Positions 9,807 to 58,666 of a stretch of DNA of 64,000 bases are shown one piece after another; positions within the stretch are counted from its first letter, which is position 1; the number at the start of each line of letters is the position of its first letter. Source of the stretch: Anthocerotibacter panamensis C109 (GTDB taxonomy: Bacteria > Cyanobacteriota > Cyanobacteriia > Gloeobacterales > Anthocerotibacteraceae); NCBI RefSeq assembly GCF_018389385.1, contig NZ_CP062698.1:2359501-2423500 (forward strand). Reading direction: 5' to 3'. The translations under genes were made by a program, and so were the position numbers. Below the pieces are notes generated by a model. That model worked only from the letters and a program-made list of their open reading frames with translations. It was not told the origin of the DNA and searched no databases.

Positions 9807-9811
9807 AACGC

Positions 9812-9879: not shown

Positions 9880-10111
9880 CAAAACTGAAGATTTCTCTGC
9901 TTGACAGCGCTCCTGATGGTTTAAGTCGGTATGATGAAGGGAGTGGCGGTAGGGGTTTCTACCTGGCTTAGGTTGGGGTAGATGTAGACCGCAAGAGAAT
10001 TGCTCGACAGGGCTATAGGGGCTTATCCTCAAGCATTTTGGGGGTTGGCAGGGCTCTGTACCGGATGTTCGCCTTAGTTTACACTAGATCACCACGCGCA
10101 CTGAGAACGCC
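9880..10111 (+). other. Leader region of glutamate synthase
   Basis: This non-coding stretch starts with a consensus TTGACA (9901-9906). A TATGAT lies 23 bases further on (9930-9935), which is too long a spacing for a standard promoter pair, so the exact promoter is unclear. The following 170 bases contain short self-complementary segments (GGTAG/CTACC near 9949-9964, GCGGT with ACCGC around them). I looked for the conserved core of the cyanobacterial glutamine riboswitch (glnA motif) and did not find it. Confidence 0.35.
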
Positions 10112-40075: not shown

Positions 40076-40306
40076 TCAAGAAGTTGACGATGCTACTTCG
40101 AAGGCCTCCAGAGCATCCAAGAGTGTAGTTTCCTGGAGGAGAAATTCCTCTTCGCTAATATCGCCCAAGTCAAAGGCAATTTGTAGGGCGGTCAACTCTT
40201 TTTGGAGGCGGCTTTTTTCATCAGTATCGACCTCGGCGGTCTCCAAAATTTCTTGGGCGATCCATATCAATCCCGCAGCGGGCCAGGTGAGTAATTGCCA
40301 GACCAT
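40076..40306 (-). CDS. gvpG: Gas vesicle protein GvpG
   Basis: A 76-residue acidic helical accessory protein needed for gas vesicle assembly. The family start LLTWPAAGLIWIAQEI and the coil ETAEVDTDEKSRLQKELTAL with DLGDISEEEFLLQE are typical of GvpG. It is the last gene of the minus-strand gvp operon, 8 bp after gvpF/L. Confidence 0.88.
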   Translation of the reverse strand: MVWQLLTWPAAGLIWIAQEILETAEVDTDEKSRLQKELTALQIAFDLGDISEEEFLLQETTLLDALEAFEVASSTS

Positions 40307-40314
40307 GATTTCTC

Positions 40315-42815: not shown

Positions 42816-42817
42816 AG

Positions 42818-43099
42818 CTAGTACGTCAAATCCACAAAAGTAAAGCGGGGCGCAGGCGCAGGCGGTAACGCGGGCGCAGGCGTCGGCAGGTTTTGTTGGT
42901 CGACCATCTGCTGCTTGAGGACCGCCAGACGGTTGTGGATGACCGTCGTGCGGGCCGCAATCCGGCACAGTTCCTGCTCTAGGCGGCTCTTCTCCGTGGC
43001 GAGCTTGTGCAGTTCAAGGTAGCGGGCGGCCTCGGTTTTGGCACGCGGCAGGGAGCTGAGCTTAGGACGAATCATGCCAGGGACGGGGCGAGACTGCAC
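42818..43099 (-). CDS. gvpV: Gas vesicle protein GvpV
   Basis: A 93-residue accessory protein. GTG 43099 follows GAGGAG by 7 bases and gives MQSRPVPGMIRPKLSS, and an ATG at 43075 is an alternative. The coil ARYLELHKLATEKSRLEQEL and IHNRLAVLKQQMVDQQ match cyanobacterial GvpV. A Pro/Ala-rich tail ends in FTFVDLTY. It starts 4 bp after the gvpJ stop. Confidence 0.78.
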   Translation of the reverse strand: MQSRPVPGMIRPKLSSLPRAKTEAARYLELHKLATEKSRLEQELCRIAARTTVIHNRLAVLKQQMVDQQNLPTPAPALPPAPAPRFTFVDLTY

Positions 43100-43103
43100 G
43101 GGG

Positions 43104-43451
43104 CTACTCCTCAGTGGGGCTAGGTAACGTGGGGGCAAGCTGGTTTTGGACGCGCTCCAGTTCCGCTTCGAGCGTCTGGATGCGCGCAAGGAGTTGTTCG
43201 TTTTGCTGGGTCAGCCCACGGGCCTGACCGCTGAGATGGGGGTCGGATTCCCACCAGTTTATGCCGATCTCGCGGGCCTTGTCGACCGAGCTAATCAAGA
43301 GGCGAATCCGCACACACAGCAGTTCTACACCCCCCACGGAGACCGTGATATCCCCGGCAATCACCACCCCCTTGTCCAACACGCGCTCCAGGATATCGGC
43401 GAGGGTATTGCCTGCGGTGGCAGACGGGGGGCGGGGCGTACTCAGGGTCAT
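43104..43451 (-). CDS. gvpJ: Gas vesicle protein GvpJ
   Basis: A minor GvpA-like structural protein. The GvpA-type core is TLADILERVLDKGVVIAGDI then VGGVELLCVRIRLLISSVDK, followed by the GvpJ-typical AREIGINWWESDPHLSGQ. A C-terminal coiled coil (QQNEQLLARIQTLEAELERV) follows. GvpJ sits at the tips of the conical caps in other systems. It lies 8 bp after gvpN. Confidence 0.93.
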   Translation of the reverse strand: MTLSTPRPPSATAGNTLADILERVLDKGVVIAGDITVSVGGVELLCVRIRLLISSVDKAREIGINWWESDPHLSGQARGLTQQNEQLLARIQTLEAELERVQNQLAPTLPSPTEE

Positions 43452-43459
43452 CGAGCAAC

Positions 43460-44353
43460 TCAGGAATGGGTCTTAAGATGGGTCGCTAGGATCTGCTCCA
43501 GGTGAGCAAGGGCGACAGCGGGGCTGGTCTTGGCGCGCGCTAATAATACATCTAGGCAGACCTCGATAAAGTCTGGATTGCCGGGATGTACCGCAATGCC
43601 ATGCTGACGGCAGACCTGCCCAATCATCAGACCCGCACGCATACTGGCATCCTGGTCGAGATTGACCGCAGCGCGAAACTCCTGCAACACAGCGACGATC
43701 AACCGGGCACTGGACTCGGGCAGACTGGTACGGCTCTTGAGGATGAGCGCTTGGGTATCGAGGTCCGGCTCACCCAGGTCAAAGGTAACCATGCGGTCGG
43801 TGAGAGCGTTCTGGGTCTGGTGGACCCCACAGTACTCCGCTGGGTTGGACGTAAAAATGGCCCGGAACTGGGGATGGACCTGAATATAATCCGGGTGGTC
43901 GCCGCGTGGAGGCATGACAATCAAACCTTCCTCCAAAGCCCCGAGCAGAATATTATTGACCTCGGGGCGCGAGCGGTTAAATTCGTCGTAGACCAGGGTC
44001 AAGCCCTCGCGGCAGGCGGTGGTCAGCCGGGAGTCTACCCAATTATGCTGGAGGTCATCCTCCACTTTCATGACGGAGTGGATATAGTTATCGACGACTT
44101 GGCGACGCTTATAGCCTGCCTGAGCCCCCAGCAGATCCGAAGACTTGAATTCATCGTCCCCATAGAGGAGCATAATCGGGCGGGCCAGGAGCGAGGCTAG
44201 GTGCAAAGCCAAAGTTGTCTTGCCCGTACCTGCCGGACCGCGCAGATGAACCGCAAAACCGCAGTGCAAAAACCGCAACGCCCGCTCGGTCAAGCGCTCA
44301 ATATACGGAGTCGTCACGAAGTGCAGGGAACTCAACTGGAGGGCTGTGGTCAT
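43460..44353 (-). CDS. gvpN: Gas vesicle ATPase GvpN
   Basis: A MoxR-type AAA+ ATPase that promotes gas vesicle growth and widening. 297 residues. Walker A is HLRGPAGTGKTTLALHLA, Walker B TLVYDEFNRSRPEVNN, and sensor region RAIFTSNPAEYCGVHQTQNA. The segment ELLGDDEFKSSDLLGAQAGY appears here as YGDDEFKSSDLLGAQAGYK, a GvpN hallmark. 3 bp from gvpC and 8 bp from gvpJ, so it is clearly co-transcribed. Confidence 0.95.
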   Translation of the reverse strand: MTTALQLSSLHFVTTPYIERLTERALRFLHCGFAVHLRGPAGTGKTTLALHLASLLARPIMLLYGDDEFKSSDLLGAQAGYKRRQVVDNYIHSVMKVEDDLQHNWVDSRLTTACREGLTLVYDEFNRSRPEVNNILLGALEEGLIVMPPRGDHPDYIQVHPQFRAIFTSNPAEYCGVHQTQNALTDRMVTFDLGEPDLDTQALILKSRTSLPESSARLIVAVLQEFRAAVNLDQDASMRAGLMIGQVCRQHGIAVHPGNPDFIEVCLDVLLARAKTSPAVALAHLEQILATHLKTHS

Positions 44354-44356
44354 GCG

Positions 44357-44956
44357 CTACGCTCCAAAGGGTTCCAGGGTTTGCTCGGCTTTAGCGACAG
44401 CCAATTGCTCCTGGATGTTGTCTAAGAAATTGGGCCGCAGGTCTCGGGGACGTCTTCTTTGGCCCTCGCCGGGACGCTTCTGGTTTTGCGAAGCCTCCAT
44501 GGTAGGCGGCTGGAAGTCTTGCAGGTGATCTACAGCAGCAGGAGCAGGGACAGATGCTCCCCAGACCGCAGTCTGGCGGCGGCTACGTTCAGCATCCAGG
44601 GTACTATACAACTGCTGGGCTAGGGCTATCCGAGTCAGGGTACGCTCTTGTTGCTGGGTCTGATTCTGCTGGGCCAGCGTCGCCCGGAACTGGCTGAGGT
44701 CGGTCCGCAGGGCTTGGGTCGCAAGAGCACGCTTCTGCTGGAGGTTCTGGAGATGGGCTTCCACCTCTTGGGCTAGAGCTAGGCGATGGGTCCTCAGGCT
44801 ACTGCGCAACTGCAACGCTTCTTGCTGAAACTGGTCCGCCAATTGCTGGCGCTGCTTGCGGTATTGCGCCAGATTGGTCTGGACCTCGCTGGTGCGTTGC
44901 TGACACTGCTGCCAGCGTTCTTGTTTTCCTTGTAACCACTGGTCGGCTAAAGCCAT
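44357..44956 (-). CDS. gvpC: GvpC-like coiled-coil protein
   Basis: A 199-residue, Gln-rich helical protein in the gvpC position. Residues about 10-125 show irregular repeats of about 33 residues with alternating patterns such as WQQCQQRTSEVQTNLAQYRK, LRSSLRTHRLALAQEVEAHL and LRTDLSQFRATLAQQNQTQQ, as expected for a protein that lies along the GvpA ribs. A Pro-rich break precedes the tail RPNFLDNIQEQLAVAKAEQT. Sequence match to known GvpC is weak, so position and repeat pattern carry the call. GGGAGA lies 7 bases before the ATG. Confidence 0.75.
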   Translation of the reverse strand: MALADQWLQGKQERWQQCQQRTSEVQTNLAQYRKQRQQLADQFQQEALQLRSSLRTHRLALAQEVEAHLQNLQQKRALATQALRTDLSQFRATLAQQNQTQQQERTLTRIALAQQLYSTLDAERSRRQTAVWGASVPAPAAVDHLQDFQPPTMEASQNQKRPGEGQRRRPRDLRPNFLDNIQEQLAVAKAEQTLEPFGA

Positions 44957-44984
44957 GGGTGTTCTCCCGTCTTGGTAGGGGGCA

Positions 44985-45002
44985 GGGGCAAGGATTTGCC
45001 CC
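44985..45002 (-). promoter_or_regulatory. Hairpin between gvpA and gvpC
   Basis: GGGGCAA / TTGCCCC form a 7-bp stem with a 4-base loop in the 69-bp gvpA-gvpC gap. On the transcribed strand it is followed by TGCCCCC, not a U-run. It is therefore more likely an RNA-stabilising or partial termination element that could give more gvpA than downstream mRNA, as in other gvp operons. Confidence 0.5.
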
Positions 45003-45025
45003 TATTGATGATCCTTCAAAAGAAC

Positions 45026-45244
45026 CTAGGCCGCAGGAGCCGCTGCCGTGGCGGTAAGACCCACAGCTTCGGCGTACTTCAGGTAGGTCTCGACCGAAGC
45101 GATGACAATACGGGCTTCTACCGCAATCAGTTCGATCCCGACGAGCGAAACCCGGACCCAGGCATCAATCACGATCCCCTTGTCCAAAATGCGGTCCACA
45201 ACCTCGGCGAGGCTGGAGGAGGAGTTAACTTTTTCAACGGCCAT
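45026..45244 (-). CDS. gvpA: Gas vesicle major structural protein GvpA
   Basis: The main rib protein of the gas vesicle wall. 72 residues: [40 protein letters not shown] and [13 protein letters not shown], near-invariant across GvpA proteins, with a short Ala-rich tail. It leads the gvpA-C-N-J-V-ATPase-F-G operon and lies 157 bp downstream of the second cheW of the taxis operon on the same strand. Two imperfect 20-bp direct repeats occur in that gap. Only one gvpA copy is in the window. Confidence 0.98.
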
Positions 45245-45390: not shown

Positions 45391-45410
45391 AAATTACCTG
45401 GCTAATTAAA
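45391..45410. repeat. Direct repeat upstream of gvpA, copy 2
   Basis: AAATTACCTGGCTAATTAAA is the second copy. It overlaps the stop codon of the downstream cheW gene, so the repeat straddles the taxis operon and gvp operon junction. Confidence 0.6.
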
Positions 45411-45857
45411 ATTAAGGAGCTGGTCTGCGTCTAGCAGAAAAATAGTCAGTGAGCCGTGCTCCTGCGGCACCACGGCCACATGGCTGGCAAGACCCAGGGT
45501 GGTACTGCGGCGGTAGGATGGGGGCAGCGTGCGGATATATTCCAGGGATACCTCTAGGAGTGTTGGAGTTTCAGTGACAGGAATACCGTAGTCTTCTCCC
45601 CCTTGGGTCTGGGCCAAAACCAGATGGGTCGGTGCTGTCTCTGGATGGGCAGGGTAGAGTCTTTGGTGGAGGTCCAGGACCGGGACGGCCCGGTCAGCTA
45701 GCGTGATTATGCCCACAGCAGTGCCTCCTGTATTTAAGACTTCAGGACAAGGAATAACCCGTTGGACGTGCTCAATCCGCAGGGCCAAGTTTACCTGTTG
45801 GATGGGGAAGACGACCAGCTTCAGTCTGGTCTTAGGCTTAGCGGGGCTGAAGTTCAC
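45402..45857 (-). CDS. CheW-like coupling protein at the end of the taxis operon
   Basis: A 151-residue CheW-domain protein starting at GTG 45857, overlapping the cheA stop region by 20 bp. CheW folds link receptors to CheA. Visible features are LKLVVFPIQQVNLALRIEHV, VPCPEV (here IPCPEVLN), GIITLADRAVPVLDLHQRLY and ITVFLLDADQLLNFN (here LTIFLLDADQLLNFN). It is the last gene of the taxis operon and immediately precedes gvpA. A second CheW is encoded upstream at 52.1 kb. Confidence 0.85.
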   Translation of the reverse strand: MNFSPAKPKTRLKLVVFPIQQVNLALRIEHVQRVIPCPEVLNTGGTAVGIITLADRAVPVLDLHQRLYPAHPETAPTHLVLAQTQGGEDYGIPVTETPTLLEVSLEYIRTLPPSYRRSTTLGLASHVAVVPQEHGSLTIFLLDADQLLNFN

Positions 45858-48800
45858 GGGCTACAGCCTCCGGGGTGAGCAAGTGGGTGAGCGTCTGCTT
45901 CAGCTCAGCAGTGGCAAAGGGTTTGGTCAGATATCCTTGAGATCCTAGTTGCTGCGCGAGTTGGCGGTGCTTTTCTCCGGCGCGGGAGGTCAGCATGACG
46001 ACAGGGATCGCGGCAAGATCGGGCTGCTGGCGGCGTTGGGTCAAGAACTCAAAGCCGTTCATGATAGGCATTTCGATGTCACACAAGACCAGTTGGATAG
46101 CCGGATACTCCCGCAGGCGCTCCAGAGCGTCCTCACCGTCTTTGGCCTGGAGTACCCGGTAGCCTAAGCCCTGGAGGGCTACCTCCAAGGTCTGGCGCTG
46201 GACCAGAGAATCATCCACGACCAGTATGGGGCCAGCAGCAGCAGTGGGCTGGGGTGGGGTGGGGCGGTGTGCAGTAGTCAATACCTGCTGGAGCAACGCG
46301 ACCCCATCAATCACCGGAGTCAGGGTTCCGTCGCTTAGGATAGTGCAGCCATAGAAGTAAGGGGGTGGCGTCATAAGTAGACTAAAGGGTTTGATGACCA
46401 GTTCCTGCTCGGTGATCAGTTGGTCGATTTCTAGGGCCAGATAGCAGTCTGTCGCTGGACTGCCCTGAGGGTTGGTCTGGAGCACCAAGAGGGGTTTGTT
46501 CCATCCTTGGGGGGTTGCAATAGCAGGAGCAGGAGGGATTCCAGGCATGGCTCGCTGGTAGGTCATCACCGCTTGCAGCGGGCACAGCGGCACCAGCCGG
46601 TCGCGCCACCAGAGGAGGCGCTGGCCTCCAGAGTGGGTGATCTGGTCTGATTTGGGGATCAAGATCTCCTGAACTTCGTTGAGGGCCAAGGCATAGGTCG
46701 CGGCTCCTACCCGGAAGACCAGCAGTTTTGCTACGCTCAGGGTCAGGGGGATACGTAGGATAAAAGTTGTCCCCTGTTGCGCGACAGAGGTCATGGTGAC
46801 GGTGCCCTTGAGCGCTTGGAGTTGGGAGCGCACCACATCTAGTCCCATACCGCGCCCGGAGAGTTCACTGACTTGGGTTGCTGTAGAGAATTCCGGCTCA
46901 AAAATGAGGTCCAGGATCTGCTCGGGAGGCGTCGTACTTGCCTGGGCTACGGTCAGTAGACCTTGGGCTATAGCCCGTTCTGTGATGCGCTCCAAGTCGA
47001 GTCCCCGGCCATCGTCCCGCACTTCCAGGATGGTTTGTGCCCCCCGATGGTAGGCGACGAGTTCAATGCGACCAACTGCGGGTTTACCCTGGCTAAGGCG
47101 GGTAGCAGTGGGTTCAAGGCCATGGTCAAAGGCATTGCGGATCAAATGCACTAGCGGGTCATACAGTTTTTCGAGAGCGGCCTTATCGACCAGGATGTCT
47201 GCCCCCTTAAGGGTCAATGCCACGGGTTTGTCATAGGTGCTACCCAGGTCGCGCAACAGCCTTGGGAAGCGGTTGAACACCTCAGCTAGGGGCAGCATAC
47301 GTGCCCACATGAGGTCGTCGCGCAAATGGGTGAGCATGCGACTGCGTTGTTCTAGACCCCGCTCTGCTCGCTGGGCCAATCCCGCTAGGGTGGTCGTTGA
47401 CGCTTCGAGGGCTCCCAGGTATTCCAGAGCCTCTTGGAGCTGTTGATGGAGGGTCTGATAGTGGTCCAACTCCAAAGGATCAAAGTACCGATCAAGGGCT
47501 TGACGCCGCGAGGCGGGGCTGACTAGGAGGTGGTCGCTCAGGTCTTGGAGCTGTCTACCCACCCGACGGAAGTCCTCAAAGGTGTCCTGTAATTCCTGGA
47601 GCGTCCCTTGGATCTGTTCGTTCTGGACCGACAGGCTGTTGTGGTTGATGACCAGTTCGCCGACGAGGTTGTTGAGGCGGTCCATACGCTCTAGTTCGAC
47701 GCGCACCGTAGGCGAGACCGAGCGGGGCGCAGCAGGGGGGACCACGGGGACGGCTACCGCAGGCATAGGCGCAGCAAACAAGTCTAGGGCAGGCGGCAGG
47801 TCGTCAAAGAGCGCGGGGATATCGGCAAAATCTACCTGCATCAACGCTTCTGCCGCAGAAGCCTTTTGCTCTGGCGAAAGACTGCTCAGATTTTCTGGCA
47901 CAAGGGCTGAAGGAGCAGTCCAGGACTGCTCCTCCGGCTCCTCAAGGGCGACTATGGGCGCTACCACAGGAGCAAGAAGCGGGCAGGGGGCTTCTGGGAT
48001 CTCAGATTGCGGGGGCTCTTCGGGTTGTTCCGGGAGCGTGAACAACGGTTGGGCTACCTTCGAGACGGGCTGGGCTACTTCCGGGGGTTGGAACTCTTGC
48101 CAGATACTTTCAGCGCGTTCCTGCCTAAAATCGGGTTCTCGCCAAGAATGCTCCGGCCACGAGACTTGCCGGGGGTTGGAGGAACGCGATGCCGGTGGGG
48201 CCGGACGGGAAAATAGACGCTGCCAAAATTCCCGTAGGGCGGTGAAGAATGTATGGGGCGGTGGCGAGACGATAGGAGAAGAAGCCGGAGTAGCTGTTGC
48301 TAGGAGCACTGGCGCGGGAGCAGTCGGTGCCGGGAGTGGATGGGTAAAAGATTGGAGCAGAGCAGAAGGCGTGCCCCCGTCCGTCCGGTCGCCAGCCAAT
48401 ACTCCTTGTTGGGCTTGCTGAAAATTTGCCAGTGCCGCTTCAGCAATTGCCCGAGGCTGGTCAGGTCGGGTCTCGAGGGCGAGGAGCACTGTCTGGGCAA
48501 TGGCTCCAAAACCAGCAAGGCTTGTCAACTCCCCTAACCCCTGGAAGACCTCAGTTTGCTCGCGCAGCACCTCTGCCACTTGCTCCCCGGTCCTGAGCGC
48601 TTCGCGGAGGCGCTCCAGCCCTTCAGCCACATCCACTTCAAAAATAGACTGGACGATATCAATGCCCAAGTCAGCAGCATCCAGCAGAGCCATCTCCTTT
48701 TGCCGAAAGGCCGCAAGCCGCTCCTCTAGCAGGACGAAAGTCTTCTCGCTGCGGGCTTCCACTTCGACGATAGGCTGCTGGTTGACCTCTGCCATGACCA

Positions 48801-49107
48801 GCAGGCTCAGGTGGTCGTAGCTCTGAAAGAGCAAGTCCTGCAACTGCCGGTCCAGAATTAACTCTTTGTGGTAGAGGCACGTGAAGTAATCTTCCAGGCG
48901 ATGGGCCACGGTCTTGACCGCCTCAAAGCCGACTGTGGCAGCCCCGCCCTTGAGAGAGTGAGCAGCCCGCATCAGGTTGTGGACGCGCGCAAGGGTACGG
49001 TCTTGGGGGAGGGCCAGCAGTTCCTGCTCTATCACCTGGAGCAGTTCAGGAGCTTCCTGGATAAAAAACTGGCATGCCTGTTGGCGAATATCGTAGTCGA
49101 GGGTCAT
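45838..49107 (-). CDS. Hybrid CheA histidine kinase with receiver (PixL-like)
   Basis: A 1089-residue CheA-type kinase. The N-terminal Hpt domain carries the phosphorylated His in MRAAHSLKGGAATVGFEAVK (about residue 50). A long Pro/Ala-rich linker follows. The dimerisation region is near 455-600 and the HATPase has HLIRNAFDHGLEP (N-box) and EVRDDGRGLDLERI. A CheW-like domain follows, then a C-terminal receiver (GPILVVDDSLVQRQTLEVAL, phospho-Asp in LVLCDIEMPIMNGFEFL). Domain order and operon place match PixL/TaxAY2-type kinases of cyanobacterial phototaxis. Confidence 0.93.
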   Translation of the reverse strand: MTLDYDIRQQACQFFIQEAPELLQVIEQELLALPQDRTLARVHNLMRAAHSLKGGAATVGFEAVKTVAHRLEDYFTCLYHKELILDRQLQDLLFQSYDHLSLLVMAEVNQQPIVEVEARSEKTFVLLEERLAAFRQKEMALLDAADLGIDIVQSIFEVDVAEGLERLREALRTGEQVAEVLREQTEVFQGLGELTSLAGFGAIAQTVLLALETRPDQPRAIAEAALANFQQAQQGVLAGDRTDGGTPSALLQSFTHPLPAPTAPAPVLLATATPASSPIVSPPPHTFFTALREFWQRLFSRPAPPASRSSNPRQVSWPEHSWREPDFRQERAESIWQEFQPPEVAQPVSKVAQPLFTLPEQPEEPPQSEIPEAPCPLLAPVVAPIVALEEPEEQSWTAPSALVPENLSSLSPEQKASAAEALMQVDFADIPALFDDLPPALDLFAAPMPAVAVPVVPPAAPRSVSPTVRVELERMDRLNNLVGELVINHNSLSVQNEQIQGTLQELQDTFEDFRRVGRQLQDLSDHLLVSPASRRQALDRYFDPLELDHYQTLHQQLQEALEYLGALEASTTTLAGLAQRAERGLEQRSRMLTHLRDDLMWARMLPLAEVFNRFPRLLRDLGSTYDKPVALTLKGADILVDKAALEKLYDPLVHLIRNAFDHGLEPTATRLSQGKPAVGRIELVAYHRGAQTILEVRDDGRGLDLERITERAIAQGLLTVAQASTTPPEQILDLIFEPEFSTATQVSELSGRGMGLDVVRSQLQALKGTVTMTSVAQQGTTFILRIPLTLSVAKLLVFRVGAATYALALNEVQEILIPKSDQITHSGGQRLLWWRDRLVPLCPLQAVMTYQRAMPGIPPAPAIATPQGWNKPLLVLQTNPQGSPATDCYLALEIDQLITEQELVIKPFSLLMTPPPYFYGCTILSDGTLTPVIDGVALLQQVLTTAHRPTPPQPTAAAGPILVVDDSLVQRQTLEVALQGLGYRVLQAKDGEDALERLREYPAIQLVLCDIEMPIMNGFEFLTQRRQQPDLAAIPVVMLTSRAGEKHRQLAQQLGSQGYLTKPFATAELKQTLTHLLTPEAVARELQPR

Positions 49108-49110
49108 GGC

Positions 49111-52029
49111 CTAACTCACTTTGAATTTGCCAACACTCACCTGAAGTTCCTGGGCCACCGTGAGTAACTGCTCAAAAGAAGCCGCAGTCTGGATGGATTC
49201 CTGGGACGCTCGCTGGGCTCCTTGGGCTACGGTCTGCATGGTCTGGGTGATGCTCTGGGAAACCTGAGCCTGCCCTTGGGCCGCCTGGGCAATGGTTTTG
49301 ACTAGGGTATTGATCTCGCTACTGGTCGTGGCGATCTGGGTCAAGCTCTGGCGGGTTTCGTTGACCAGACGTGTCCCGTTGACGACCTGTTCGGTCCCTG
49401 ATTCCATGGCTAGAGCGACTTCTTTGGTCTGCGCCTGAATGCCCTCGACCAGCTTTTCGATATCGGCGGTGGCCTGAGCGGACTGCCGCGCCAGAGAGCG
49501 CACCTCGTCAGCCACCACCGCAAAACCGCGTCCATACTCCCCGGCGCGGGCAGCTTCAATGGCGGCGTTGAGGGCTAAGAGGTTGGTTTGGGCGGCAAAA
49601 CTGGCAATCAGGCTCACGACTTTGGAGATTTTCTGGGAAGATTCGCTGAGCCGCTTGATCTTCTTGGCTGCCTCTGCCACCGTTTCGCGGATCACCAGGA
49701 TGCCTTCGACCGTGCGGTCCATAGCCGTATCCCCGCGCCGGAGGGTTTCGTCGGCCTGTTGCACCGCTCGTTCTGCTTGACGGGTACTGGCGGAGACCTC
49801 CTGAATCGACTGGGCCATCCGCTCCACCTGCTCTAGGGCACGCGCGAGGGCCTGAGCTTGCTCCAGAGATTCCTGGGCGAGGGCTTGGACGCTGGGGGTA
49901 CTGGTGGTGGCGGTTTGGGCCACTTGCTGTGCAGCAGTCTGCACCTGAATAACCAGTTTGCGTAGGCTGGCAATCGTCACGTTGTAGGAGTCGGCCAGCG
50001 TCCCGATTTCGTCACTGGTGACTTGGGCGCGGACGGTGAGGTCGCCCTTACTCACTGGGTCCACCTCGATCAGCAGTTCCATGGCGCGTCGCTGAATCTG
50101 CTCTTTGGCCTGCTGCTGTTGACGGGCGAACTCCTGTTGCTGGAGGACTTCGAGTTGTTTTGCTTTTTCTTGCTGAAGGGCGGCTTCAGCCAACAGTTGT
50201 GCCTCGCGGGTGTTGGCTTGGGCCTGTTGGATCAAGCGGGCTTGGGCCTGTTCGCGGGTGACGGCCTCCACCTGTTGGATCGCAACCGTCAACTGAGTAG
50301 TGATCTGGTAGAGCACGTTGATCTCTGAATCGGCCCACGGACGCGGGCTACTACAGTGGTGGGCGATGAGCAAGCCCCAGATTTTTTTGTCGCGCACGAT
50401 GGGCACCACCAGATTGGCCTTGACCTGGAAGCGCTCTAAAAGCTGGATATGACAGGGGGTCAGCCCCGCCTGATAGATGTCTGGAGTCGGGATGATGCGG
50501 CCCGTATTGTAGCCCGCCTTACCGGCCCCCAAGTTCTCTTGGAAGCAGGTGTCGGCGATGGGCAGCCCCAAAGAGGGGGTCCATCCCGGTAGGACCGATT
50601 CTGCTACCACTGTCCCCAAATACTGCTCATCAAACTGGTACACCACCACCCGGTCTGTCTGGAGGAAGGTCCGAACTTCGCTGGTGGCGGTCGTCAGGGT
50701 GGTCTGGAGGTCCAACGAGGCGCGAATTTTGCCGATCATCGCGATCAGTTGGTCCCGCTCGGCTCGAGCCCGCTCTTGCACCTGACGGACCGTTTCTGCC
50801 TGCTGGAGGGCAATGGTCAACTGAGTGGCAATCTGGTAGAGCAGGTTGATCTCCGAATCGGCCCAGGAGCGCGGTTCACTACAGTGGTGGGCGATGAGCA
50901 AGCCCCAGACTTTTTTGTCGAGAATGATGGGCACCACCAGATTGGCTTTGACCTGGAAGCGCTCTAGCATCTGGATATGACAGGGGCTCAACCCGGCATG
51001 TTGGATATCGGCGGTGGCTACAATCCGGTTCTCAAGATATTGGGCGGCTTTAGTTTCGCGAAAGCAGGTATCCACAATGGGCATCCCCAGAGACTGAGTC
51101 CAGCCTGTACCCACCGACTCTGCCACGACGGTACCCGCAAATTTGTCATCAAACTGGTACACCACCACCCGGTCTGTCTGGAGGAAGGCCCGGACCTCGG
51201 TTACGGCCGTCCGCAGCGTGGTCTGGAGGTCCAACGAGGCGCGAATTTTGTTGATCAGCGCCACCAGTTGGTCCCGCTCGGCTCGAGCCCGCTCTTGCAC
51301 CTGACGGACCGTTTCTGCCTGCTGGAGGGCAATGGTCAACTGAGTGGCAATCTGGTAGAGCAGGTTGATCTCCGAATCGGCCCAGGAGCGCGGTTCACTA
51401 CAGTGGTGGGCGATGAGCAAGCCCCAGACTTTTTTGTCGAGAATGATGGGCACCACCAGATTGGCTTTGACCTGGAAGCGCTCTAGCATCTGGATATGAC
51501 AGGGGCTCAACCCGGCATGTTGGATATCGGCGGTGGCTACAATCCGGTTCTCAAGATATTGGGCGGCTTTAGTTTCGCGAAAGCAGGTATCCACAATGGG
51601 CATCCCCAGAGACTGAGTCCAGCCTGTACCCACCGACTCTGCCACGACGGTACCCGCAAATTTGTCATCAAACTGGTACACCACCACCCGGTCTGTCTGG
51701 AGGAAGGCCCGGACCTCGGTTACGGCCGTCCGCAGCGTGGTCTGGAGGTCCAACGAGGCGCGAATTTTAGCAATGATCGTCAGCAGAGTATCGCGCTCGG
51801 CCTTGAAATTGTCGCGTAGCGCAGGAGGAGCGGACTCTTCCTGCATCAGGTAAATCAGGTTCTCGATTTGCTGAACCGTCTTGAATACATAGCGAGACGC
51901 CTCGTCATCCCCCTTACTCAGCAGCGATTTGAGAAAGTCCGTCCGCTTGGTGATTTGTTCTATAAGCGGGGCGGGTGTAACGGGCTTGGACTCGGCTGGG
52001 CTGGACTTGGGTTGGTAAGAAATCGTCAT
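49111..52029 (-). CDS. Soluble taxis receptor with three DXCF cyanobacteriochrome GAF domains (PixJ-like)
   Basis: A 972-residue methyl-accepting protein without membrane helices. Three tandem GAF domains of the cyanobacteriochrome type span about residues 85-236, 258-409 and 431-590. Each has the DXCF motif ([16 protein letters not shown] in GAF3; Cys149, 322, 495) and the canonical bilin cysteine followed by His (SPCHIQ/TPCHIQ; Cys177, 350, 526). DXCF domains generally bind phycoviolobilin or phycocyanobilin and sense blue or violet/green light. A HAMP-like segment ([20 protein letters not shown]) and the MCP signalling domain ([20 protein letters not shown]) follow. GAF1 and GAF2 are encoded by identical DNA. 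The order G-H-I-J-L around it matches the pix phototaxis operon. Confidence 0.93.
50746..51249. repeat. 504-bp direct repeat, copy encoding GAF2
   Basis: Reading both copies side by side I see no difference from 51265-51768, with a period of 519 bp (173 codons). It includes all of GAF2 with its DXCF and CH cysteines and the linker before it. Confidence 0.9.
51265..51768. repeat. 504-bp direct repeat, copy encoding GAF1
   Basis: The partner of 50746-51249. Only 15 bp of spacer, which differs, separates the two. Synonymous sites are identical, so duplication or gene conversion is very recent. The third GAF copy (about 50290-50730) has clearly diverged. Confidence 0.9.
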
Positions 52030-52058
52030 GAGGGGGCTCCACAGATTCGGTAGTCAAG

Positions 52059-52550
52059 CTAGGTATGCGACAAAAGGGACTGTAGGACCGCTTCCCCGTC
52101 CAGTAGGATCAGGGCTTCGCCCTCGGCGTTTCGCCAGTAGCCTCGGGACAATTTCGTCAGGGTGGGCGGGAAAAGTGAACCCCCCAGCGGTTGTAGTTCT
52201 GCCTGGGATTTCACCATAATGTCTTCAGTGCGCGCCACTACCAGGCCCAGGCGATGCCCCCCTTGACCGTGAATCAAAAGGACGGCGTAATGGACCGACC
52301 CATGCTGTTGTGTCGGAGGGGACGCCGCGAGCCCCAGGAACTGCCCTAGGTCAACGAGCCAGAGGATCTCTCCGCGCCAGTTATAGATACCCAGGGTCCA
52401 GACGGGCATCTGCGGTATGGGAACGACCTGCGCTACCGGAACCTGGAGTACTTCGGTGAGTTGGTCCACGCTCAGGAGCCCTATCGTCTCAGGCAACAGA
52501 CCAAAGCTCAGAAATTGCCCAACCTGTGTGGGGAAGTCAGATACCGTCAT
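52059..52550 (-). CDS. CheW-like coupling protein (PixI-like)
   Basis: A 163-residue CheW-domain protein: FGLLPETIGLLSVDQLTEVL, VPIPQMPVWTLGIYNWRGEI-LWLVDLGQ and VMVKSQ-type segment TEDIMVKSQAELQPLG. The WRGEI(L)WLVDL core is the classic CheW loop. It lies between the cheY gene (2 bp) and the receptor gene (29 bp), as pixI does. Confidence 0.9.
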   Translation of the reverse strand: MTVSDFPTQVGQFLSFGLLPETIGLLSVDQLTEVLQVPVAQVVPIPQMPVWTLGIYNWRGEILWLVDLGQFLGLAASPPTQQHGSVHYAVLLIHGQGGHRLGLVVARTEDIMVKSQAELQPLGGSLFPPTLTKLSRGYWRNAEGEALILLDGEAVLQSLLSHT

Positions 52551-52552
52551 GC

Positions 52553-52918
52553 TTACCTTCTTAGGACAGATTTGACTGTCCGTATGAGTTCTTCCTGGTC
52601 AATAGGCTTGGTGAGATAGGCATCAGCGCCCTGCTTGAGGCCCCAAAAGCGGTCCATCGCCGTATCTTTGGTCGAGCACAGGACCACAGGAATCTGGCTG
52701 GTAGCAGGCATATTCTTGAGTTCGCGGCACAGCTCAAATCCGCTCAGCCCCGGTAGGACAATATCTAAGAGGATCGCATCGGGCTTGAGCTGTTGGGCTT
52801 GAGACAGGGCATCCTCGCCGCTGATCGCAGTAAGTACCCTGAGCCCCCCCCGGCGCAAACAGATAGCCAAAACTTCTAATTCCGTCAGCGTGTCATCAAC
52901 CACCAGAACCGTACTCAC
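52553..52918 (-). CDS. CheY-like response regulator (PixH-like)
   Basis: A single-domain receiver. GTG 52918 (MSTVLVVDDTLTELEVLAIC) follows AAAGGA by about 6 bases, and a TTG at 52942 would add 8 residues. Phospho-Asp is in PDAILLDIVLPGLSGFELCR, the Thr/Ser switch in PVVLCSTKDTAMDRFWGLKQ and the Lys in AYLTKPIDQEEL. 121 residues. Its partner kinase is the hybrid CheA in the same operon. Output is probably to a motor or to the PatA-like regulator. Confidence 0.92.
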   Translation of the reverse strand: MSTVLVVDDTLTELEVLAICLRRGGLRVLTAISGEDALSQAQQLKPDAILLDIVLPGLSGFELCRELKNMPATSQIPVVLCSTKDTAMDRFWGLKQGADAYLTKPIDQEELIRTVKSVLRR

Positions 52919-52946
52919 GAAGATCCTTTTCAAGAGGTACAAGGGG

Positions 52947-54119
52947 TCATTTCAATAACTTCTGGCTAGCCTTCTTTAGGTGACGGCTCACCACTTTTAG
53001 CACCAAATACGCTCCCGCAGGCTTGCCAATAAATCCTGAAGCGCCTACAAGCTTGGAGCGCACCCGGTCGATGAGACCGTCGTTGCCGGTCAGGATAATA
53101 ATCGGGGTCTGTCGGAACTGAGCAACTTTGCGTAGCTTGGAGCAGACCTCGTAGCCGTTGGTATTGGGCATGACCAGATCCAAAAAAATCAAATCTGGTT
53201 TGCGTTGCACAAGCATTACAAGTCCGCGTAGCGGGTCTTGGACCGAAAAATAGCGATAGCCCGCGCCTGTCAAGATCTGCTCCATCGTCTGGCAGATCTG
53301 GAGGCTGTCATCAATACAGGCAATGAGCGGGGCACTAGAGGGCGTGGGCAAAGGTGCAGGCGGGGCGAGGTCTGGAACCTGCACCATGCCGAGTGCTCCT
53401 TCTTGTAGATAAGCCGATAAAGTACGCCCCAGAATTGGCACCGCAAGGTTGACTTGGCTTGCGACCTCCCGGAGCGTGTGCTGCCCATCTAAGAGCGGAT
53501 AGAGGCTTTGATATGCCTTTGCCGAAAGCTTTTCCTGGAGCAGTAAGGGCTGCCGTAATAAAGGGGCTTGGTCTGGGGAGAATTTTCCTAAGCTTGCTGC
53601 CTGCCAGACCAGTTGATTGCGGCGCAACCGCTCCAGGGTCTCGGGTACGCTGATCAGGACCGGAGGGACATCCCGACAGCAAGGATCTTCCGGGTCTTGA
53701 CGGAATATAAGCTCCGCCGCTGGATGGACCTCAAAGAGCAGTTCATCCACAAGTCCATTAGCAACCGCAATAGCCTGTTCTCGCGTTACGCGCCCCTGCC
53801 TGACTAAGGGGTAGAGGAGGGTATACTGCCAGCTACGGCATGTGAGGGCTTGGTGCTGCTTGATATCAGCAGGAAGCTGGTACTGAGCTATTAGGCGTTG
53901 CCAGCGTCTGATGCCGTGAAGACCCCCTGTGGCAAAAAATAGACGACCCAGATAAAAATAAAAACTCCACAGCGGCAGGGGTTTTCCTGGGACCATAGCT
54001 TGGATATCAAACCTTCCACTAAAGCTGTCCTGCTTAAAAGACTCAAACTGACGGAGGAGGTCATTGGAGGCTGGGGGAACTTTTCCTGTGGGGGGATGAA
54101 AAGTCATCAATGGACACAT
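52947..54119 (-). CDS. PatA-type response regulator (PixG-like)
   Basis: A 390-residue protein with an N-terminal PATAN domain (residues about 20-130: FESFKQDSFSGRFDIQAM, WSFYFYLGRLFFATGGLHGI-RRWQRL), a helical middle (SLYPLLDGQHTLREVASQVN) and a C-terminal receiver (PLIACIDDSLQICQTMEQIL; phospho-Asp in DLIFLDLVMPNTNGYEVCSK; PIIILTGNDGLIDRVRSKLV). This is the PatA/PixG layout. It is the first gene of the taxis operon. ATG 54119 or ATG 54107 (MTFHPPTGKVPP) could be the start. Confidence 0.92.
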   Translation of the reverse strand: MCPLMTFHPPTGKVPPASNDLLRQFESFKQDSFSGRFDIQAMVPGKPLPLWSFYFYLGRLFFATGGLHGIRRWQRLIAQYQLPADIKQHQALTCRSWQYTLLYPLVRQGRVTREQAIAVANGLVDELLFEVHPAAELIFRQDPEDPCCRDVPPVLISVPETLERLRRNQLVWQAASLGKFSPDQAPLLRQPLLLQEKLSAKAYQSLYPLLDGQHTLREVASQVNLAVPILGRTLSAYLQEGALGMVQVPDLAPPAPLPTPSSAPLIACIDDSLQICQTMEQILTGAGYRYFSVQDPLRGLVMLVQRKPDLIFLDLVMPNTNGYEVCSKLRKVAQFRQTPIIILTGNDGLIDRVRSKLVGASGFIGKPAGAYLVLKVVSRHLKKASQKLLK

Positions 54120-54418
54120 CCTTCGCCGCGCTCAGCGCGTTAGCATTTTTCGGGGGTAGTTATCAAAGAGTTTTATTAAGCACTCTTCTAATGGACAGCT
54201 TACAATTCTTCAGTGATTACCGTCCTCCGTATAATTACGTAGTAGCGTAAGATACATCAAAGCTTCACAATCAAGCATTTGGCGTTATTCCCATTGCACG
54301 CTGTAATTCTTTAAATCTGTCCGATAGTTGAGTGGTTCTACAAAACCATAGTCACTTCAGTGGAATTACGCACTGTGCAGCATCCTTGACCGGGATCAGG
54401 ACTGGTAGTCTGAAAGCT
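54120..54418. other. Divergent promoter region between taxis operon and gvpF/L-gvpK-arsA operon
   Basis: This 299-bp AT-richer gap must hold promoters in both directions. I see short inverted segments (GCTCAGCGC near 54131) and several AT-rich hexamers, and a TTGACC at about 54387 on the plus strand without a well-spaced -10. No gene is visible. A shared regulator binding here could set both arms of the locus. Confidence 0.4.
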
Positions 54419-55075
54419 ATGTATGCTTTTGCTTTGGCCCCAGCCCCAGCTATTTCGCAGGCTATTCTGGGAATTATCCCGGAACCTGTGGTCTGGATTT
54501 CTGTAGGAGCCCTTGTCGCGGTAGTCCAGCCCTTGGACCTGAGCGCTATTATGGCCGATGAAGCGCAGTCTCTGACCGCTGTGGTGGCCCATGACCGGGT
54601 CCTGCGCGAACTTTTTGCTTTGGGGGATATCCTGCCCCTACGTTTTGGGACGGTTTTTGTATCCGAAACGGCACTCAAAGAACATCTGGAGACGCACCAA
54701 GCGCACTACCAGCAAAAGTTGACCCATGTAGCCGGATTCGGGGAGTTTGCCCTCAAAGTCCAACCACTCCCCCCAAGCGTCCCGTCCCCGACGCCAGCCT
54801 TGGAGGGGCGCGCCTACTTCACCGCCCGCAAAGCCCACCAAAATGCACTCTTGGTGGCGCAGCAGACCGCCCAAACCGAGCGGTTGCGCCTGCCTTCCGA
54901 CCTGTGCACCTGTTTTATGTTGGGGGCTGACCGCGTGCATGTAGGACCAGAGCGCATAGACTTCTTGCTGCCGCGCGCTCAAGAGACGGCCCTCATTGCC
55001 TGGGTGCAGGCTCAAGTGCTTATTTATCACCAACTCACCCTCATCGGGCCACTGCCGCCCTACCACTTTGTCTAG
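54419..55075 (+). CDS. gvpL: Gas vesicle protein GvpF/GvpL, second copy
   Basis: A 218-residue GvpF/L family protein. ATG 54419 gives MYAFALAPAPAISQAILGII. Family features are VVAHDRVLRELFALGDILPLRFGTVF, LKEHLETHQAHYQQKLTHVA, YFTARKAHQNALL and the end VYHQLTLIGPLPPYHFV (here IYHQLTLIGPLPPYHFV). It is more divergent than the copy at 40.3 kb, so the two paralogues probably have separate roles, as GvpF, GvpL and GvpW do elsewhere. The next gene starts 1 bp after its stop. Confidence 0.88.
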   Translation: MYAFALAPAPAISQAILGIIPEPVVWISVGALVAVVQPLDLSAIMADEAQSLTAVVAHDRVLRELFALGDILPLRFGTVFVSETALKEHLETHQAHYQQKLTHVAGFGEFALKVQPLPPSVPSPTPALEGRAYFTARKAHQNALLVAQQTAQTERLRLPSDLCTCFMLGADRVHVGPERIDFLLPRAQETALIAWVQAQVLIYHQLTLIGPLPPYHFV

Positions 55076-55076
55076 C

Positions 55077-55529
55077 GTGCCTGAGGGACTGCCTGCCGCT
55101 GAATCCAAGCCCAATGCCGGGTTGGCACCCTTGATCCTGACCTTGGTGGAGCTGATTCGCCAACTCCTCGAAGCTCAGGTCATCCGCCAGATCGAAGCCG
55201 ATCACCTCAGCGAGACGCAAATTAACCGGGCGGCTGAGAGTTTGCAGGCTCTGGAGGCCCAAGTCCTCCAGCTATGCGAAATCCTGGACGTGGACCCGAG
55301 CCAACTCAATATCGACCTGGGCGAGGCGGGCAAGTTGCTCCCCGACAAGGGAGGCTATTACCCAGGACAGCCCTGTACGCAGGGGAGCATCCTAGAGCTT
55401 TTGGACCGCCTCATCACAACAGGCGTAGCTGTCGAAGGGGCTCTAGACTTGGGGATAGCGGGCCTCGATCTGATTCATGCCCGCTTACTACTACTTTTGA
55501 CGACCCACCCCCGAGCCCAACGCCCATGA
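55077..55529 (+). CDS. gvpK: Gas vesicle protein GvpK
   Basis: GTG 55077 gives a 150-residue protein. The GvpK core is APLILTLVELIRQLLEAQVI, IEADHLSETQINRAAESLQA and LDVDPSQLNIDLGEAGKLLP. After YYPGQP, a GvpA/GvpJ-like tail follows (SILELLDRLITTGVAVEGAL, GIAGLDLIHARLLLL). In cyanobacteria GvpK carries such a tail, so this is a normal form for the phylum. It begins 1 bp after gvpF/L and its TGA overlaps the ATPase start (ATGA). Confidence 0.92.
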   Translation: MPEGLPAAESKPNAGLAPLILTLVELIRQLLEAQVIRQIEADHLSETQINRAAESLQALEAQVLQLCEILDVDPSQLNIDLGEAGKLLPDKGGYYPGQPCTQGSILELLDRLITTGVAVEGALDLGIAGLDLIHARLLLLLTTHPRAQRP

Positions 55530-57409
55530 ACCCGACCATTCCCCCCACCGTCCAACTCCTGCTGATCAGCGGCAAGGGCGGCGTCGGCAAGAGCACCTTT
55601 GCCTGTGCTCTGGCCTGCCAGTTAGCCCAACAAGAGCGCCCGGTCTGGTTGATCTCTGTGGACCCGGCGCACTCCATCGGGGACGTGCTGGCTCAGTCGG
55701 TGACCGACACCCCCCGCCCGGTCGCCCCCTATCCCCACTGGTACAGCCTTGCTCTGGATGCCCAGCAAGAGCTTATGCACTTTCGTGAGCGCTACCAGGA
55801 GGCTGTGACTCAGATGGCTAGCTACAGCAGCCTGTTTGAAGGGGCGGACCTGATGGGCCTGTGGAATCTGGGCTGGCCCGGATTTGATGAAGTGATGGCC
55901 GTTGTGCGCGTCAGCCAGATCCTCCAAGACCAGCAAACCGGGACGGTAGTGCTAGACATGGCTCCCACCGGGCATTCGATGCGTTTGTTGGAGTACCCGG
56001 ACTTTATTGAACGGCTGTTGCAGGTCTTTGTCGGTCTTCAGGACAAGCACAAGCAGCTCCAGCAAACCTTTGGCCGGGGGTATCAGGCCGATCAGGCCGA
56101 TACTTTTTTGACCGAATTTACCGAACGGCTACGCGGACTTCACGCCCTACTGAGCGACCCCGCCCGGACCCAAGCCTGGGTCGTCCTTCTGGCGGAATCC
56201 TTGAGCGTCCCGGAGACCCAACGCTTCCTTAGCTTCCTCAAGACAGCGCAAATACCCGTAGGTGGGGTGGTCGTCAATCAGGTTGTGCGGGCGGTGGTGG
56301 GCTGTTCTTTTTGTGAGGCTTGGGCTGCAAGCCAGCAGGCACGGCTCGCTGAACTTCCTGCGGTTGCCCTGTGGCAGGTGCCCTTATTTCTGGAGGAGCC
56401 TATAGGCGAGGCTGCGCTCAGTAAGGTGTTCGCCTGCTGTACTCCCCTTGTCTCAGAGCCTTTAGCCATGCCTGCCTCGCCGTACCCGGACCCAACGCAA
56501 CCGGGGTTGCCCGATTATTTGGCTTTGGGACAACGGCTGGTTTTGCTCGCCGGTAAAGGCGGGGTGGGTAAGACCACTACGGCGGCGGCATTGGCCGTGC
56601 GTATAGCCCGCGAGCATCCCGACACCAAGATTCTCATCGTCTCCATCGACCCCGCCCACTCTTTGGGGGATGCCTTTGCCCAACCACTAGGACCCAAGCC
56701 TATCTGCCTGCGAGAAAATCTCTGGGGGCAGGAAGTGGCGGCAGCAGCGACCCTGACCGAGGTCATGGCTGGCCTGCGCGAAGCTTTGGCAAACCTCAAT
56801 CGAGATGACATGAGTCTGGAGGAAGCCCGCACCTGGCAGGCACTCCTGGAGCAACCCCCACCAGGACTCGACGAGATTGCCGCTCTGCTCAATGTCGTGG
56901 AAGTATCCGACCAATGGGGCTTAATTATTCTGGATACCGCGCCCACCGGGCACTTGCTGCGCCTCTTACAGATGCCCCAAGTGCTGGAAGAATGGCTGAC
57001 CTACTTTCTGCGGCTGTGGGTTAAGTACCGAAATATGTTTGCGGACACCACCTTGGTTGAGCAGTTCCGCCAATGGCGCAAGCAGGTCTTACAACTGCAA
57101 AAAGACCTCACTAACCCGCAGTACACCGTCGCTCTGCCCGTGCTCAACGCTGAGACCACCGTGCTTCAAGAGACTATACGCCTGGTCGCGGCTCTGACTT
57201 CCCTCCAACTTGCCCCCGCCCATCTCGTCATCAACCGCATCGTGCAGTCCAAGTCCTGCACCCAATGTCAGGCTATTGCGACCCACCACGAGCGGATTTT
57301 GCGCCGCATACAAGCGTCCTTTCCAGGCCAAACGCTCCTGTCTGTGCCCCTGTTGCCAACCCTGCCAGCGGGCATTCCTGGCCTTGCAGTCTATGGTACT
57401 TATCTGTGA
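55526..57409 (+). CDS. Tandem ArsA/Get3-like ATPase coupled to gvpK
   Basis: A 627-residue protein with two ArsA/Get3 modules in one chain. Module 1 has the P-loop SGKGGVGKST (residues 15-24), VDPAHSIGD, DMAPTGHSMRLLEYPD and a CxxC (VGCSFCEAW). Module 2 has GKGGVGKTT (about 343), IDPAHSLGDAF, DTAPTGHLLRLLQMPQ and CxxC (SKSCTQCQAI). Both keep the signature lysine and the CxxC used by Get3 dimers for zinc, so the fused halves may mimic a Get3 dimer. ATG 55526 overlaps the gvpK stop by 4 bp. No arsenic genes are nearby, so a gas vesicle assembly or client-handling role is more likely than arsenite export, by context. Confidence 0.88.
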   Translation: MNPTIPPTVQLLLISGKGGVGKSTFACALACQLAQQERPVWLISVDPAHSIGDVLAQSVTDTPRPVAPYPHWYSLALDAQQELMHFRERYQEAVTQMASYSSLFEGADLMGLWNLGWPGFDEVMAVVRVSQILQDQQTGTVVLDMAPTGHSMRLLEYPDFIERLLQVFVGLQDKHKQLQQTFGRGYQADQADTFLTEFTERLRGLHALLSDPARTQAWVVLLAESLSVPETQRFLSFLKTAQIPVGGVVVNQVVRAVVGCSFCEAWAASQQARLAELPAVALWQVPLFLEEPIGEAALSKVFACCTPLVSEPLAMPASPYPDPTQPGLPDYLALGQRLVLLAGKGGVGKTTTAAALAVRIAREHPDTKILIVSIDPAHSLGDAFAQPLGPKPICLRENLWGQEVAAAATLTEVMAGLREALANLNRDDMSLEEARTWQALLEQPPPGLDEIAALLNVVEVSDQWGLIILDTAPTGHLLRLLQMPQVLEEWLTYFLRLWVKYRNMFADTTLVEQFRQWRKQVLQLQKDLTNPQYTVALPVLNAETTVLQETIRLVAALTSLQLAPAHLVINRIVQSKSCTQCQAIATHHERILRRIQASFPGQTLLSVPLLPTLPAGIPGLAVYGTYL

Positions 57410-57517
57410 AACTCCTCGCTGCGCATCGTCCATGGAACCCGGAATCTCTATCAGGGACGAGGTAAGCAAGGCTCCATCGAGACAGATTGGGATAGACCGG
57501 TATTGAGGTCCACCCCT

Positions 57518-58666
57518 ATGCGTTTACTACCGAAAGAAGAACTTACAGCCCTGATGGAAGTCCGGGCACAACCCTGCATATCCGTCTATCTGCCCACGGA
57601 AGGCCGGGGCGACCCCAACCAGCAAAATCCTCTGCGCTTCAAGAACCAGATCAAAGTAGCCGAGCAGCAGTTGGAGTCCTTGGGATTCAAACCCCATAAG
57701 GCTCGTGCTTTGCTCCAACCGGCCCTAGAACTGGACACCTCCGATTTTTGGCAATATCAAAGTGATGGTCTGGCTATCTTTGTGGCTCCAGATTTCTTTT
57801 GTTACTACCGCTTGCCCCATCGCTTCGCAGCGCAGGTGGTGGTGAGTGACCACCCTTATATCAAGCCGCTGTTGCCGCTGTTGACCAACGATGGTCCATT
57901 CTATATCCTTGCTCTGAGCCAGAGGCAGGTCCGTCTTCTGGAGGGCGACCGCTACAGCGTTCACGAAATTCACTTGGAGGATATGCCCCTGAGTCTGTCT
58001 GAAGCCCTGCGCTATGACGAGCCTGAGCAGAAGCAATTCCAGTACCGCACGGGCACTCCTGCCGCCGCTCCTGAAGCTCAGCCGGGGGTTTTCCACGGTC
58101 AGGGCATGGTCACCGAGGACCACAAAGAGGAACTCGAACGCTTCTTCCACCAGGTCAATGCAGGGCTCCATGACTATTTGCGGGAGAAAAAAGTACCTTT
58201 AGTACTCGCCGGGGTGGAGTATCTTTTGCCTATTTACCGCGCCGCTAATACCTATCCCCACCTCATACCCGAGAGCCTTACCGGCAATCCCGATGACCGT
58301 AAACCTTTCGCGCTGCACGAGCAGGTATGGCCCCTCGTCGCGCCCATTTTTGCTCAGGCACAACAACGGGCACTGGAGCAATATGAGCAACGCTTGGGAA
58401 GCGGGAGCGCTTCTGGGAATCTGGAGGAAATTGTCTCTGGCGCTTACTTCAGCCGTGTTCAAACGCTTTTTGTGCCCATCGAAACAGAGCGGTGGGGCGT
58501 CTTTGATGCCGAGGCCAACCGGACCCATCTACACGCACAACCCGAACCGGGAGACCATGACCTGCTCGATCTTGCCGCCCTGCATACCTTGCGCAATGGC
58601 GGGGAAGTCTACGTGGTCCCGGCGATCCCTGACTTTGCTCCGCTTGCTGCTATTTTTCGCTACTAA
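57518..58666 (+). CDS. baeRF-family (bacterial release-factor-like) protein
   Basis: A 382-residue cytosolic protein resembling the bacterial archaeo-eukaryotic release factor (baeRF) families. The start PCISVYLPTEGRGDPNQQNP with LRFKNQIKVAEQQLESLGF is typical, as is YILALSQRQVRLLEGDRYSV in the middle and the ending ALHTLRNGGEVYVVPA. These proteins are predicted to act at stalled ribosomes or in RNA-linked stress responses, without direct proof. ATG 57518 is chosen over TTG 57503. It follows the ArsA-like gene by 108 bp and may be a separate unit. Confidence 0.75.
   Translation: MRLLPKEELTALMEVRAQPCISVYLPTEGRGDPNQQNPLRFKNQIKVAEQQLESLGFKPHKARALLQPALELDTSDFWQYQSDGLAIFVAPDFFCYYRLPHRFAAQVVVSDHPYIKPLLPLLTNDGPFYILALSQRQVRLLEGDRYSVHEIHLEDMPLSLSEALRYDEPEQKQFQYRTGTPAAAPEAQPGVFHGQGMVTEDHKEELERFFHQVNAGLHDYLREKKVPLVLAGVEYLLPIYRAANTYPHLIPESLTGNPDDRKPFALHEQVWPLVAPIFAQAQQRALEQYEQRLGSGSASGNLEEIVSGAYFSRVQTLFVPIETERWGVFDAEANRTHLHAQPEPGDHDLLDLAALHTLRNGGEVYVVPAIPDFAPLAAIFRY

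Follow-up and report, generated by a model that had tools for sequence, protein, structure and literature searches.

What is an ATPase of the ArsA/Get3 type doing among gas vesicle genes? The question arises from a 64,000-nucleotide stretch of the Anthocerotibacter panamensis C109 genome (the window), in which an uninterrupted open reading frame on the plus strand (55526-57409) translates into a tandem Get3/ArsA-type ATPase of 627 aa, an identification based on the open frame, two PF02374 matches, NCBIfam and a structure model. The start codon of this arsA-like gene (ATG, 55526-55528) shares bases with the stop codon of gvpK (TGA, 55527-55529), so that the two genes overlap as ATGA, an arrangement already pointed out in a first-pass annotation of this DNA and read directly in the sequence here. 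The list of open reading frames offers a further ATG upstream, at 55274. We prefer 55526 because a start at 55274 would cover most of the second half of gvpK, and because homologues, including that of Candidatus Cyanaurora vandensis (locus L140), start near 55526.

Gas vesicles are shells of protein that give cells buoyancy. The gvp genes of the window form two groups, one on the minus strand (40076-45244) and one on the plus strand (54332-57409). The minus-strand group comprises gvpG (40076-40306; PF05120, E 2e-18), gvpF/L (40315-41043; PF06386, E 7e-60), a gene for a Cdc48-like double-AAA ATPase of 592 aa (41040-42818), a gvpV-like ORF (42818-43189) that is conserved in gvp clusters and has no Pfam or NCBIfam match, a gvpJ-like gene (43104-43451), gvpN encoding an AAA_5 ATPase (43460-44353), a gvpC-like ORF without a Pfam match (44357-44956), situated between gvpN and gvpA, and gvpA itself (45026-45244), which encodes the shell protein; the products of gvpA and of the gvpJ-like gene are candidate clients of the arsA-like ATPase. 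The plus-strand group begins with a gvpF/L-type gene that is probably gvpW (54332-55075; PF06386, E 1e-30; translation may in fact begin at the ATG at 54419), followed one base past its stop by gvpK (55077-55529; GTG start; PF05121, E 1.4e-27) and then by the arsA-like gene. A chemotaxis/phototaxis-type operon encoding CheW, a hybrid CheA, a triple-GAF methyl-accepting protein, a second CheW and response regulators occupies the space between the groups (45402-54119, minus strand). A bacterial eRF1-like gene (baeRF / ribosome hibernation type; 57503-58666, plus strand) lies 3′ of the ATPase gene, and profile searches of the other loci revealed no counterpart of it directly beside arsA.

The window protein is a member of the TRC40/GET3/ArsA superfamily. 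PF02374 matches it twice (374 bits in all; cut-off 24.3), TIGR00345 of NCBIfam scores 372.7 bits against a cut-off of 135, and both halves carry an intact deviant Walker A motif: G16KGGVGKST in the first (aa 16-24; 55571-55597), invariant in the family except for S23/T, and G343KGGVGKTT in the second (aa 343-351; 56552-56578), which is likewise conserved. Switch I reads DPAHS in both halves and switch II reads DMAPTGH in the first half and DTAPTGH in the second. A CxxC pair is also found in each half (C260-S-F-C263, 56303-56314; C578-T-Q-C581, 57257-57268), the former aligning with the zinc motif of Get3, where it matches CEFC of archaeal Get3 (3zq6) residue for residue. The first-pass annotation was thus right that P-loop, switch and CxxC motifs are kept in both halves. 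The predicted structure of the protein (pLDDT 87.5, pTM 0.88) is an ArsA/Get3 pseudodimer whose closest whole-chain fold is the closed ArsA of L. ferriphilum (9nbw; Z 33.6 over 537 residues); single halves match Get3 with Z about 25, including forms with a bound transmembrane client. A fold in common with Get3 does not imply a common client.

Given the two-domain ArsA fold and the public annotation of homologues as 'ArsA family ATPase', the protein might be an arsenite-pump ATPase (ArsA) that lies near gvp genes by accident, a reading to which we attach almost no probability. The two metal-site cysteines tested are replaced: C113 of E. coli ArsA aligns with W113, which is invariant in 47 homologues, and C422 corresponds to L441 when the halves are aligned through the PGxDE motif. 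The alignment around C172 is heavily gapped; this position is S/T in the Cluster 4 ArsA homologues, according to PMC2963123. The arsenite ArsA equivalog TIGR04291 reaches 181 bits against a cut-off of 650, there is no match to Acr3 anywhere in the organism's own genome, and none occurs beside the gene in the 15 genomes in which it is unlinked to gvpK. Among the arsA-like loci ArsD is absent, and a single weak ArsB match and two ArsR matches lie elsewhere in the loci. Together with a distribution restricted to GvpK-positive genomes, these features led us to reject an arsenite role. They also agree with the earlier remark that arsenic resistance genes are lacking nearby, as no ars gene was present among the neighbours examined.

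In 2010 Castillo & Saier described a group of ArsA homologues, Cluster 4, whose members have two domains (mean 637 aa), occur in gvp operons in cyanobacteria as well as in other phyla and have lost the cysteines of ArsA; a role in energising vesicle biogenesis was suggested for them (PMC2963123). On its sequence features, the window protein belongs to this cluster, since it has two domains, a length of about 637 aa, a gvp context, W at C113, an aliphatic residue at C422 and no ars genes. It differs from Cluster 4 in having CxxC in both halves and gvpK rather than gvpW directly upstream. The gas vesicle association itself has therefore been known since 2010; relative to the accessible text of that account (PMC2963123), what is new is the strict phyletic profile and a Cdc48-like partner.

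To define this profile we used 386 Cyanobacteriota genomes, in which absence was judged by tblastn and HMM searches and family membership by a strong match to the window protein (weakest about 1e-59; next level 1e-34). GvpK (PF05121) was detected in 56 of the 386 genomes. The arsA-like family was present in 51 of these 56 and in none of the 330 GvpK-negative genomes (Fisher p = 2e-58, uncorrected for phylogeny), which bears out the co-occurrence with gvpK that the first-pass annotation had proposed to examine across cyanobacteria. In four genera of mixed state (g7, g13, g14 and g16), the GvpK-negative genome visible in the lists lacks both the arsA-like and the Cdc48-like ATPase. Five GvpK-positive genomes are without the family. 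One of them, G050, is incomplete; the other four, namely G334 and the congeneric G193, G282 and G346, have GvpA, good completeness and only single-domain ArsA relatives. G334 shows no arsA remnant at the gvp locus or genome-wide, with a run of N in its gvp stretch. A second sample of 20 relatives was concordant in 20 of 20 cases, if G399 with its fragmented gene is included, and shares several genomes with the first sample (G000, G177 and G286 among the GvpK-positive, G036 and G107 among the negatives).

Linkage to gvpK does not account for the whole of this pattern. No more than about 7 kb separates 36 of the 51 family members from gvpK, and the remaining 15 are unlinked to it, eight at least 119 kb away on the same contig and seven on other contigs; the DNA examined around these 15 copies showed no gvp gene. 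Because the unlinked copies nevertheless all occur in GvpK-positive genomes, the profile is not only a matter of operon hitch-hiking. Homologues lying for the most part at a distance from gvp genes, or in the company of ars genes, the outcome that would have spoken against the earlier idea of a vesicle function, were not what we found, and Acr3 was not adjacent in the genomes tested. From the phyletic profile we conclude, with a probability of about 95%, that the arsA-like ATPase acts in gas vesicle formation or upkeep.

The best 80 loci from a scan of contigs were all cyanobacterial, so that occurrence in other phyla is taken from PMC2963123, and one gvp-linked copy is on a plasmid, p4 of Nostoc sphaeroides. 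The scanned loci include some unusual gvpK genes. In L092 (G177) and L104 (G332), GvpK is contained in an unusually long ORF (436-450 aa) far from other gvp genes, and L100 (G255) has tandem repeats of gvpK and gvpF/L at 6897-11200; its three gvpK copies score identically and are spaced at 2020 bases.

The immediate genetic partner of the ATPase is more often gvpW than gvpK. The former stands directly 5′ of the arsA-like gene in 28 loci, mostly with gaps of 9-49 nt, a count that leaves out the window since gvpK intervenes there, and a Cdc48-like gene stands 3′ in 27 loci; these are counts of loci rather than species, from two collections that may overlap in genomes. As an immediate upstream neighbour, gvpK was found only in the window and in L140 of the sister lineage Candidatus Cyanaurora vandensis, whose genes follow the order gvpW-gvpK-arsA, here too with an overlap between arsA and the end of gvpK. 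Among the best 80 loci, L140 is the closest outside relative (62 % identity); a further match from the window's own family, with 63 % identity and the same coordinates, is probably the same record. We therefore discarded the coupling to gvpK as a generally important feature. Of the tie to gvpK drawn in the first-pass annotation, the link to vesicles holds across the sampled genomes, but gvpK is not the general partner, the conserved upstream gene being gvpW. Since the scan of homologues revealed the tandem as a conserved family and not a one-off, and since the gene order is repeated in Candidatus Cyanaurora vandensis, chance can be excluded as an explanation of the locus.

In a tree of the separate halves, first halves group together and second halves group together (100/99), the first and second halves of the gas vesicle family form a single group (95/90), and this family stands apart from both arsenite ArsA halves (100/100). 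The topology points, moderately firmly given that several reference branches are long, to a single old tandem duplication that was independent of the ArsA duplication. Of the sequences scanned, only the window protein and Cyanaurora L140 have retained CxxC in both halves; the other family members lack the double motif, so it was dropped as a family-wide feature. The window lineage, which branches deepest in the family, probably retains the older, double-CxxC state. DPAHS of the second half is invariant in the family alignment. In L107 (10425-12338; G131), the first-half switch I is degenerate (STSLVSSLSN), which suggests that family members can lose the first nucleotide site, and from the contrast between the two the halves may be unequal. 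Two further loci depart from the usual form: the arsA-like gene of L085 (7997-10074; G215) consists of two consecutive ORFs, one per half (331 + 343 aa), reflecting either natural fission or a frameshift, and the arsA-like protein of L219 (5-1924; Gloeobacterales MAG ES-bin-313) groups with crown cyanobacteria and not with the window protein, through transfer or mis-binning.

The Cdc48-like ATPase of the minus-strand group has the same kind of profile as the arsA-like protein. It has matches (E <= 1e-90, 52-67 % identity) in 55 of the 56 GvpK-positive genomes, the sole exception being G099, and in no others. Its gene is often unlinked to gvpK and often lies beside the arsA-like gene, of which it is the most widespread identified neighbour; at seven loci with no gvp gene in the DNA examined, it stands divergently beside arsA. 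The wider Cdc48 family is not confined to vesicles, since haloarchaea and Methylobacterium have relatives of about 50 % identity at loci unconnected with gas vesicles; another at about 50 % identity is part of a gvp cluster in Methylocella that also contains an Hsp20 gene. On a Methylocella tundrae plasmid (L228, 1081-9629), the gvp cluster ends in Hsp20 and CDC48-family genes, with no arsA-like gene in the stretch seen. Our literature search found no paper that connects gas vesicles to Get3, and none that connects them to an 'AAA family ATPase' and gvpN.

Based on analogy, we propose as the best single mechanism, tentatively and with the client predicted, that the ATPase is an ATP-driven chaperone for hydrophobic GvpA-type segments. 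This reading follows from the analogy to Get3 and to algal ArsA1, a tandem pseudodimer without CxxC that binds hydrophobic tail-anchored clients (PMC11170914), and from the view that GvpA, being so aggregation-prone, likely requires constant escort by other proteins (PMC11445434). Each half of the window protein resembles Get3/TRC40 in fold, P-loop, switches and the CxxC zinc motif, and apparently also in an expanded region after switch II. This stretch exceeds that of E. coli ArsA in length and contains conserved aromatic-rich amphipathic helices, in a comparison of helix hydrophobicity with a handful of reference proteins, and it falls where Get3 has its client-binding helices, of which it is a candidate counterpart. 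GvpK, in turn, seems to bear a GvpA-like tail: its C-terminus (aa 104-142) matches the GvpA family (PF00741, E 2.8e-8). A GvpK-GvpA fusion special to the window was ruled out, as 70 of 77 cyanobacterial GvpK carry the tail at a loose threshold, and because most of them do, GvpK is also a possible client. The matching fold, the helices at the Get3 client site and the GvpK tail make the idea of a chaperone for GvpA plausible.

The analogies have their limits. Get3/TRC40 is a homodimer of single-domain chains, whereas the window protein has two domains fused in one chain, is set in a gas vesicle context and has no known tail-anchored client or Get1/2 receptor. Algal ArsA1 (Chlamydomonas, 5zme) is also a single-chain pseudodimer of two Get3-like halves and is the best whole-sequence match among solved structures, but it is eukaryotic, lacks CxxC and has a chloroplast membrane protein as its client. 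Bacterial ArsA (E. coli, 1f48; L. ferriphilum, 9nbw) shares the two ArsA domains and provides the closest closed-state whole-chain fold; unlike it, the window protein has replacements at the tested metal-site cysteines, has no ars operon, falls below the equivalog cut-off and apparently arose by a separate duplication. No such ATPase is named in the Bacillus and haloarchaeal vesicle gene sets as described in the papers considered, and a chaperone-like role has been proposed for GvpF and GvpG (PMC11445434).

As a chaperone, the protein would be a Get3-type ATPase dedicated to gas vesicles in which the two subunits of a Get3 dimer are fused in one chain. ATP binding would close the halves and create a hydrophobic surface between the helical subdomains, which would shield, after translation, a water-avoiding segment of GvpA, GvpJ or the GvpA-like tail of GvpK; hydrolysis would open the halves and deliver the subunit to the machinery of GvpF/L/W and GvpK that assembles the vesicle. 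Probably the Cdc48-like AAA ATPase acts in this proteostasis step as well, for instance by taking wrongly assembled subunits apart. In the window lineage, a zinc ion may be held between the halves by the paired CxxC, as it is in Get3. That the ATPase is essential for vesicles is doubtful, because five GvpK-positive genomes lack the family and because Anabaena PCC 7120 gvpABC, NJKFG and VW, without an arsA-like gene, make E. coli float, with irregular vesicles (PMC7204071).

The main rival, possible although we do not prefer it, is that the ATPase is an assembly switch and not a holdase, driving the ATP-dependent loading, activation or recycling of the GvpF/L/W-GvpK nucleation complex without shielding GvpA. 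Its conserved genetic partners, gvpW at the 28 loci and gvpK in the window lineage, would suit such a role, as would the presence of GvpK and GvpL-type proteins in an early assembly complex of B. megaterium (PMC11445434), and Castillo & Saier propose only the energising of a biogenic step (PMC2963123). However, a chaperone is just as compatible with the evidence from profile and adjacency, and the closest known functions of the fold are the handling of hydrophobic clients or metalloids.

Vesicle upkeep is the theme of another alternative, which we consider improbable, namely that the protein works with the Cdc48-like ATPase to extract or recycle shell subunits of failed or collapsed vesicles rather than to build new ones. 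Cdc48-type proteins are unfoldases, and the arsA-cdc48 neighbourhood, including the seven divergent pairs, would be in keeping with turnover or repair, but arsA also belongs to the same short-gap group as the assembly genes gvpW and gvpK. Production of vesicles by E. coli without either gene (PMC7204071) would again be consistent with a role in turnover. A very unlikely option is that the protein, being a P-loop ATPase akin to ParA/MinD, controls the spacing or segregation of vesicles inside the cell; it belongs to a related P-loop class and gives weak ParA and MinD profile matches, yet ArsA/Get3 is its best family by a wide margin and no DNA-binding feature was recognised in it.

Returning to the chaperone, a more specific and rather doubtful extension is a cyanobacterial two-ATPase proteostasis module, in which the tandem Get3-type chaperone, together with a Cdc48-like unfoldase that lacks an N-domain, would receive, shield and proofread GvpA-type subunits. 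How the aggregation-prone GvpA is kept soluble and delivered to the growing vesicle is an open question (PMC11445434), and if such a module exists, a soluble equivalent of the pathway for tail-anchored proteins would serve the unusually hydrophobic shell. Cyanobacteria keep the two ATPases almost only when they make vesicles, and apart from the 2010 note on ArsA neither is counted among the gvp genes in the papers considered; adding both might improve the engineered E. coli vesicles used for ultrasound imaging.
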